This document shows positions 9,090 to 42,529 of a stretch of 64,000 nt of DNA, one piece after another. Both the position numbers and the translations under genes were made by a program. The notes beneath the pieces were generated by a model that saw only the letters and a list, made by a program, of their open reading frames with translations, was not told where the DNA came from and searched no databases. Within the stretch, counting starts at the first letter, position 1, and the number at the start of each line of letters is the position of its first letter. The DNA is taken from NCBI GenBank assembly GCA_934045905.1, contig OW203765.1:32149997-32213996 (forward strand). Reading direction: 5' to 3'. Origin of the DNA: Leuctra nigra (Eukaryota; Arthropoda; Insecta; Plecoptera; Leuctridae).

Positions 9090-9184
9090 GGGATGAGATG
9101 GTGTTCAGAGACCAATGGGGAGGCATCAGCGTCTACAATGCTGCCAACCTCACGGCGAGAAGTATTATGACAAACCAAACATAC
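9090..9184 (+). CDS. Peptidase exon 1 of the window (propeller start)
   Basis: Acceptor TTTTTCAG, donor GTGAGT. Two bases complete a split codon, then 31 codons with the family's '[13 protein letters not shown]' entry into the propeller and an N-glycosylation sequon (NLT). It ends in phase 0. Confidence 0.88.

Positions 9185-42529: not shown

Follow-up and report, generated by a model that had tools for sequence, protein, structure and literature searches.

Tandem repeats that span exon-intron boundaries form a named class, the "mirages" of lancelets (PMC3087553). The mirages of the lancelet gene Adh3 have units of 10-72 bp, the globin gene BflGb6 has an acceptor array of 150-160 bp units, 3 or 6 in number, and the globin gene BflGb9 has a duplicated donor side with one extra copy (PMC3087553). 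TnC of the lancelet also carries mirages, and in lancelets the single gene PGBD5 has one repeat of 2 x 60 bp and another of 3 x 108 bp (PMC3902484). Mirages reportedly leave splicing undisturbed and have been proposed as a source of introns (PMC3087553; PMC3902484). The AGGT model of intron gain is also related, because it invokes a tandem duplication of coding sequence and splice motifs that is tolerated via splicing (PMC3443670).

Here we describe arrays of this kind in the genome of the insect Leuctra nigra. The stretch of DNA that was analysed, hereafter the window, comprises 64,000 nucleotides (C4:32149997-32213996) of an assembly of 536 Mb in 144 contigs. The arrays resemble the lancelet mirages in that donors and acceptors are both hit and unit lengths are specific to each site. 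In the mirages the outermost copy is the one used; for the present arrays, frame continuity suggests that it would be. However, the mirages belong to cephalochordates and number 3-6 units in BflGb6, whereas the present arrays belong to an insect, reach 71 and 87 copies, and amount to 17 in one gene family. PGBD5 is alike in that multiple splice edges of the gene are duplicated with unrelated units. In PGBD5, two edges are affected with few copies and imperfect units; here four edges are affected in the window gene and five in the gene at C4:6.04-6.12 Mb. The AGGT model differs in that a duplication inside an exon creates an intron, whereas here an existing intron is lengthened by copies of its own edge (PMC3443670).

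The first-pass annotation of the window knew of no described locus with such recurrence. This statement does not stand beside the accounts of the lancelet mirages (Adh3, the globins, and TnC) and of PGBD5 with its two junctions (PMC3087553, PMC3902484). The array type is already known; what is new is its occurrence in an insect, and thus in a new phylum, the copy numbers, and the recurrence in one family. A literature search that covered few subscription papers found no arthropod report of exon-edge arrays.

Structure of the peptidase gene

The gene was read from the genomic sequence as follows.

9090..42529, + strand: DPP4-like serine peptidase gene, 13 exons read, GT-AG introns; coding 5' end not found
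+ strand, exons 1-5 in order: 9090-9184, 11025-11152 (e2), 16673-16884, 17467-17633 (e4), 20884-20990
+ strand, exons 6-9 in order: 22766-22889, 24075-24304, 25044-25312, 33235-33568 (e8)
+ strand, exons 10-13 in order: 35520-35714, 36293-36450 (e10), 41618-41829, 42383-42529

The 13 joined exons give a single frame of 791 residues to the stop codon when only the outermost array copies are used, namely the first at donors and the last at acceptors. The predicted protein matches PF00930 (E 7.4e-75) and PF00326 (E 5.5e-55), which bears out the earlier identification of a peptidase gene. DPP4 structures are the best match of the C-terminal part, and the GWSYGG serine motif encoded in e10 is aligned with DPP4. 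Judged from its predicted DPPIV_N and Peptidase_S9 domains and this motif, the window gene is a DPP4-like (S9B) peptidase gene. The closest named relatives of the protein are from insects, Callosobruchus maculatus (73% identity) and Apolygus lucorum (68%); the highest identity among the matches listed is 77%.

Junction-spanning arrays of the window gene

Four splice junctions of this gene are duplicated. Copy numbers are given throughout as they stand in one assembly.

11025..11152, + strand: exon e2, whose final 40 nt are the exon part of copy 1 of the 48-bp array
11113..14522, + strand: 48-bp donor array at e2, 71.0 copies (TRF); unit of 40 nt exon and 8 nt intron; copy 1 keeps the frame
17467..17633, + strand: exon e4; its final 24 nt supply the exon part in the 31-bp array
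17610..18378, + strand: 31-bp donor array at e4, 24.9 copies (TRF), 26 donor anchors (own count); copy 1 keeps the frame
28076..33361, + strand: 170-bp acceptor array at e8, 31.1 copies (TRF); unit of about 43 nt intron and 127 nt exon
33235..33568, + strand: exon e8, which begins inside the final copy of the 170-bp array; this copy reads into the exon
36431..36505, + strand: 75-bp donor duplication, copy 1; 20 nt of e10, which ends at 36450, and 55 nt of intron
36547..36621, + strand: 75-bp donor duplication, copy 2, found by reading

The three TRF arrays (48, 31, and 170 bp) consist of tandem units that contain an exon-intron boundary, and TRF and our own counts agree with the reiteration first proposed for them (71, about 26, and 31 copies). 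The 75-bp donor is likewise duplicated; however, the pair is not head-to-tail, since the copies are 116 bp apart and separated by about 41 bp of filler that includes a G run. The view that four different junctions with unrelated units were duplicated separately is supported. The notion that arrays in the gene always span an exon edge is not, because two further arrays are wholly intronic.

9588..10344, + strand: 36-bp array of 21 copies between e1 and e2, touching no exon
39531..40021, + strand: 165-bp array of 3 copies between e10 and e11

Two variant sites alternate from copy to copy in the 36-bp array.

The 71 copies of the 48-bp array are in exact register by our own count. GT is intact in 70 of the 71 copies and GTAAGT in 69, and reading one copy too far leads to an in-frame stop. 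Eight distinct units occur among the 71 copies, with interspersed variants and runs of one variant. Four of the five exon-part variants alter an amino acid; the Tyr-to-His change is present in 37 copies, while Tyr is retained in the functional copy. In the 170-bp array, the acceptor string TGTTGCAGC is present in all 31 copies, and six of ten variants alter an amino acid. The last copy of this array differs from the majority at two sites, with G instead of the C of 29 of the 31 copies and C instead of the T of 28. From these amino-acid-changing variants, the surplus copies seem free of coding constraint.

Edge arrays in other DPP4-like loci

The paralogue sample consisted of 110 kb around other DPP4-like loci of the same genome, chosen by PF00930 matches, and further paralogue exons were added later from PF00326 matches. 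These loci hold 13 further edge-spanning arrays, so the arrays are not specific to the window gene.

C1a gene 1: e5 acceptor, 124 bp x 7.8
C1a gene 2: e3 acceptor, 107 bp x 2.4; e7/8 acceptor, 145 bp x 8.3; e9 acceptor, 40 bp x 17.9
C1b: e5 acceptor, 97 bp x 87, 8.3 kb (L014 1596-9914; C1:45.84-45.85 Mb), exceeding every window array in size
C1b: e9 acceptor, 140 bp x 2.4
C1b: e11 donor, 2 copies, 134 bp apart
C1c: e4 acceptor, 73 bp x 14
C4a: e3 donor, 92 bp x 2.8; e4 donor, 128 bp x 11.8; e5 donor, 100 bp x 3.1
C4a: e9 donor, 127 bp x 3 or more
C4a: e11 acceptor, 133 bp x 2.1

The units differ from those of the window gene, and the junctions are other ones and sometimes the same. In the ten paralogue arrays that were inspected, the readable frame came from the same end copy, the outermost one. 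Altogether, six DPP4-like genes carry 17 edge-spanning arrays (8 donors and 9 acceptors; 31-170 bp) on about 102 edges. Of 12 places among the later PF00326 matches, three (L029, L035, and L040) were judged to be other S9 genes and omitted from this number; they have no arrays, and with their roughly 8 edges included the proportion becomes 17 of about 110. Also outside the 102-edge count is the PF00930 exon in L018. The sampled exons of C2:37.14-37.15 Mb, C1:39.609, and C1:39.625 have no arrays; the latter two may be part of neighbouring genes in the C1a cluster.

Excess over random placement and comparison with P450 genes

Across the window and the 110 kb of paralogous sequence, 13 of 26 TRF arrays (score at least 100, period at least 15, overlaps merged) cross a DPP4-like exon edge. 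When one unit of each array was placed at random in 20,000 trials, 1.18 crossings resulted on average and 7 at most; paralogue exon ends were taken from tblastn, which makes them approximate, and the exon list covered the DPP4-like genes but not the other two genes in the window. No array was seen inside the DPP4-like exons of these 174 kb. Nine random 10-kb stretches contained 8 arrays in 90 kb by our own count at the same score and period thresholds. The 13 non-edge arrays in 174 kb have approximately this density; therefore, the edge arrays are an addition to the ordinary background. Three of the random stretches (L020, L021, and L024) contain sequences of 48-174 bp that stand in tandem as 2-3 perfect or near-perfect copies, which hints that tandem duplication has recently been frequent in the genome.

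P450 genes served as one unrelated comparison family, with 60 places taken of the 98 matches listed. Their flanks measured 200-250 bp per side, so that arrays farther away or with long units would escape notice. We found one independent donor-spanning array, which sits in a short intron; its 37-bp unit is common to two related genes (L048, 3.6 copies; L061, 5.5 copies). A 75-bp array of 2.9 copies (L094 1-214) lies over a P450 stop codon, the first stop being kept and the rest falling in the 3' flank, and it runs beyond the sampled stretch. A 45-bp array in L096 is in-frame within a P450 exon. The stop-codon and in-frame arrays are further cases at odds with an invariable position on a splice junction. 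An array in L044 is 3' of the stop codon and another in L074 begins about 30 bp into the intron; neither was scored as an edge array, and low-score AT-rich repeats in L083 and L089 were excluded.

Edge arrays thus number 17 on 102 DPP4-like edges versus 2 on an assumed 100 P450 edges (Fisher p about 0.0004; 0.0006 without the window gene), where both edge totals are our own approximate tallies rather than annotations and the tests depend on them. Such arrays exist outside the DPP4 family but are much rarer there, and the excess is at the level of the family, not of the gene. Equal frequency in most genes of the genome, the contrary case named in the first-pass annotation, is not what the P450 genes show, since they have far fewer edge arrays.

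Origin and maintenance of the arrays

We interpret the arrays as mirage-type minisatellites, which result from frequent duplications in GC-rich exons and persist where the extra copies come to lie on the side that does not code; we assign this reading a probability of roughly two in three. The first step would have been a short tandem duplication of about 30-170 bp, with repair or template slippage where exon and nearby intron share a short match as its probable cause, and the copy number may then have been altered by unequal exchange. Duplications would arise often in the GC-rich exons of this family; the excess at edges is observed, and GC content is its putative cause. Because exons and units are similar in length, a duplication that involves an exon will usually extend over one of its edges. 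Within an exon, only in-frame units could persist. Survivors would be those with an intact outermost copy, as frame continuity indicates: the first copy at a donor ends the exon, and the last at an acceptor starts it. At a gene end, the first stop codon would be retained, as in the one P450 case. The surplus copies would lie in the intron or 3' flank and be tolerated there; those in the intron may be ignored by a splicing machinery that pairs sites across the exon, which would favour the outermost copy at either end. The arrays would then be by-products that are for the most part tolerated, and they would lengthen introns and provide spare splice sites.

Short matches were present at several breakpoints: 6 bp in the C1c array, 5 bp in L039, and, with one mismatch each, 9 bp in L038 and 10 bp in the 170-bp array. 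Breakpoints were inspected in the 6 of 17 arrays with clean ends. Exact matches of at least 6 bp occur in 0.35% of random pairs, a control that counted exact matches only. The 48-bp array has a match of 2 bp, a length attained by 19% of random pairs. The breakpoint matches suggest microhomology-mediated duplication.

The GC content is 0.58-0.62 in the exons versus 0.39-0.42 in whole loci, and 0.46-0.57 in the P450 exon matches. The P450 exons are also GC-rich, yet they have far fewer edge arrays; therefore, GC content alone cannot explain the DPP4-like excess. The four array-bearing introns of the window gene are its four longest of 12 even after subtraction of the arrays. Over 34 introns of six genes, intron length is weakly associated with arrays (one-sided p = 0.037), and the paralogues include short introns that carry arrays (155 and 504 bp net).

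The spacing of copies is divisible by three in 1 of the 17 arrays (p = 0.0096), or in 2 of 17 (p = 0.044) if 75 replaces 116 for the pair in the window gene. This scarcity of multiples of three is not predicted by a purely neutral model. With a spacing that is not a multiple of three, any mistaken use of an inner copy changes the reading frame, and the faulty messages might then be destroyed; the scarcity might also be due to chance.

The excess at exon edges, the involvement of both donors and acceptors, and the absence of arrays from the interiors of DPP4-like exons in the window and the 110 kb would also fit a junction-targeted mechanism, in which transcription, R-loops, or splicing-coupled repair make duplications specifically at splice sites. 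We regard this mechanism, which the first-pass annotation had put forward, as unlikely. The array over the P450 stop codon occupies a coding edge that has no splice site, so a cause coupled to splicing or R-loops is not needed, and the L096 array lies in-frame within an exon. The position of the junction varies within the units (exon part of 6-130 nt). Moreover, wholly interior duplications should be few at such similar exon and unit lengths, and their absence means little. It is likewise improbable that the rows of splice sites are a selected device that tunes splicing or expression of these peptidases, even though the splice sites are intact in almost every copy (GT in 70 of 71, AG in 31 of 31) and the arrays recur in one family (17 on about 102 edges, as opposed to 2 places on the assumed 100 P450 edges). 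Intact sites would be expected anyway of copies that were young and homogenised, amino-acid changes have entered the exon parts of the surplus copies, and the paralogues differ in both junctions and units. The in-frame stop met on reading the 48-bp array one copy beyond the first also argues against such a device.

Creation of the arrays or their copy numbers by the assembler has a precedent, because the lancelet mirage of BflGb6 was misassembled in a genome draft, according to PMC3087553. For the present arrays we consider it very unlikely. Interspersed variants separate the copies (8 distinct units among 71), independent arrays occur at many loci and nearly all have a readable outer copy, and the random stretches of the same assembly contain few arrays of low copy number; re-sequencing upheld comparable lancelet repeats, as reported in PMC3902484. 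Coincidence, whereby a genome rich in repeats would have some arrays on exon edges by accident, would agree with the arrays in the random stretches and their density, close to that of the non-edge arrays, but it can hardly account for 13 crossings where 1.18 are expected.

Beyond mirage-type duplication as such, we propose tentatively, at slightly less than even odds, that in this insect lineage tandem duplications arise unusually often in the coding exons of certain families, with the result that the edges of DPP4-like exons repeatedly become long arrays of splice sites. If this were true, arthropods would have a parallel to the lancelet speciality, one from which introns still grow and spare splice sites and new introns still arise, and the one family would be a natural laboratory for the choice of the spliceosome among 30-90 near-identical sites.

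If the arrays are as assembled, one gene contains 71 near-identical donors and 31 near-identical acceptors, and a paralogue contains 87 acceptors. Such arrays make it testable how the splicing machinery picks among identical sites and whether its reading goes across the exon. They also supply many independent cases for a tandem-duplication route toward longer or new introns, and they are a warning that gene prediction will fail at array-bearing loci.

Other features of the window

An Rfam search of the window gave no match. No edge-spanning array was seen in the kelch gene or the VGAT gene of the window, the exons of which were mapped in part. A stretch of about 38 bp (CTAGGAAAACGCTCAGTGTAACGCGTTGATGAGCGAGC) was seen by eye at 33596-33635, 36715-36755, and 41481-41518, two copies being direct and one nearly identical but inverted. 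These repeats flank the e10-e11 intron region and, by eye, resemble the ends of a mobile element. A second inverted pair was noticed in the same way near 38700-38790 and 41150-41270.

A long open frame at 49498-50721 is VGAT/SLC32A1-like and about 90% identical to proteins of Timema, Anabrus, and the termite Cryptotermes (highest identity among the matches listed, 90%). An apparently intronic 100-bp repeat of 2.8 copies lies among the kelch and VGAT genes. At 54201-54395, a 21-bp repeat of 9.3 copies on the minus strand is in-frame and encodes the heptad RHEETNG in an open frame that adjoins kelch exons.
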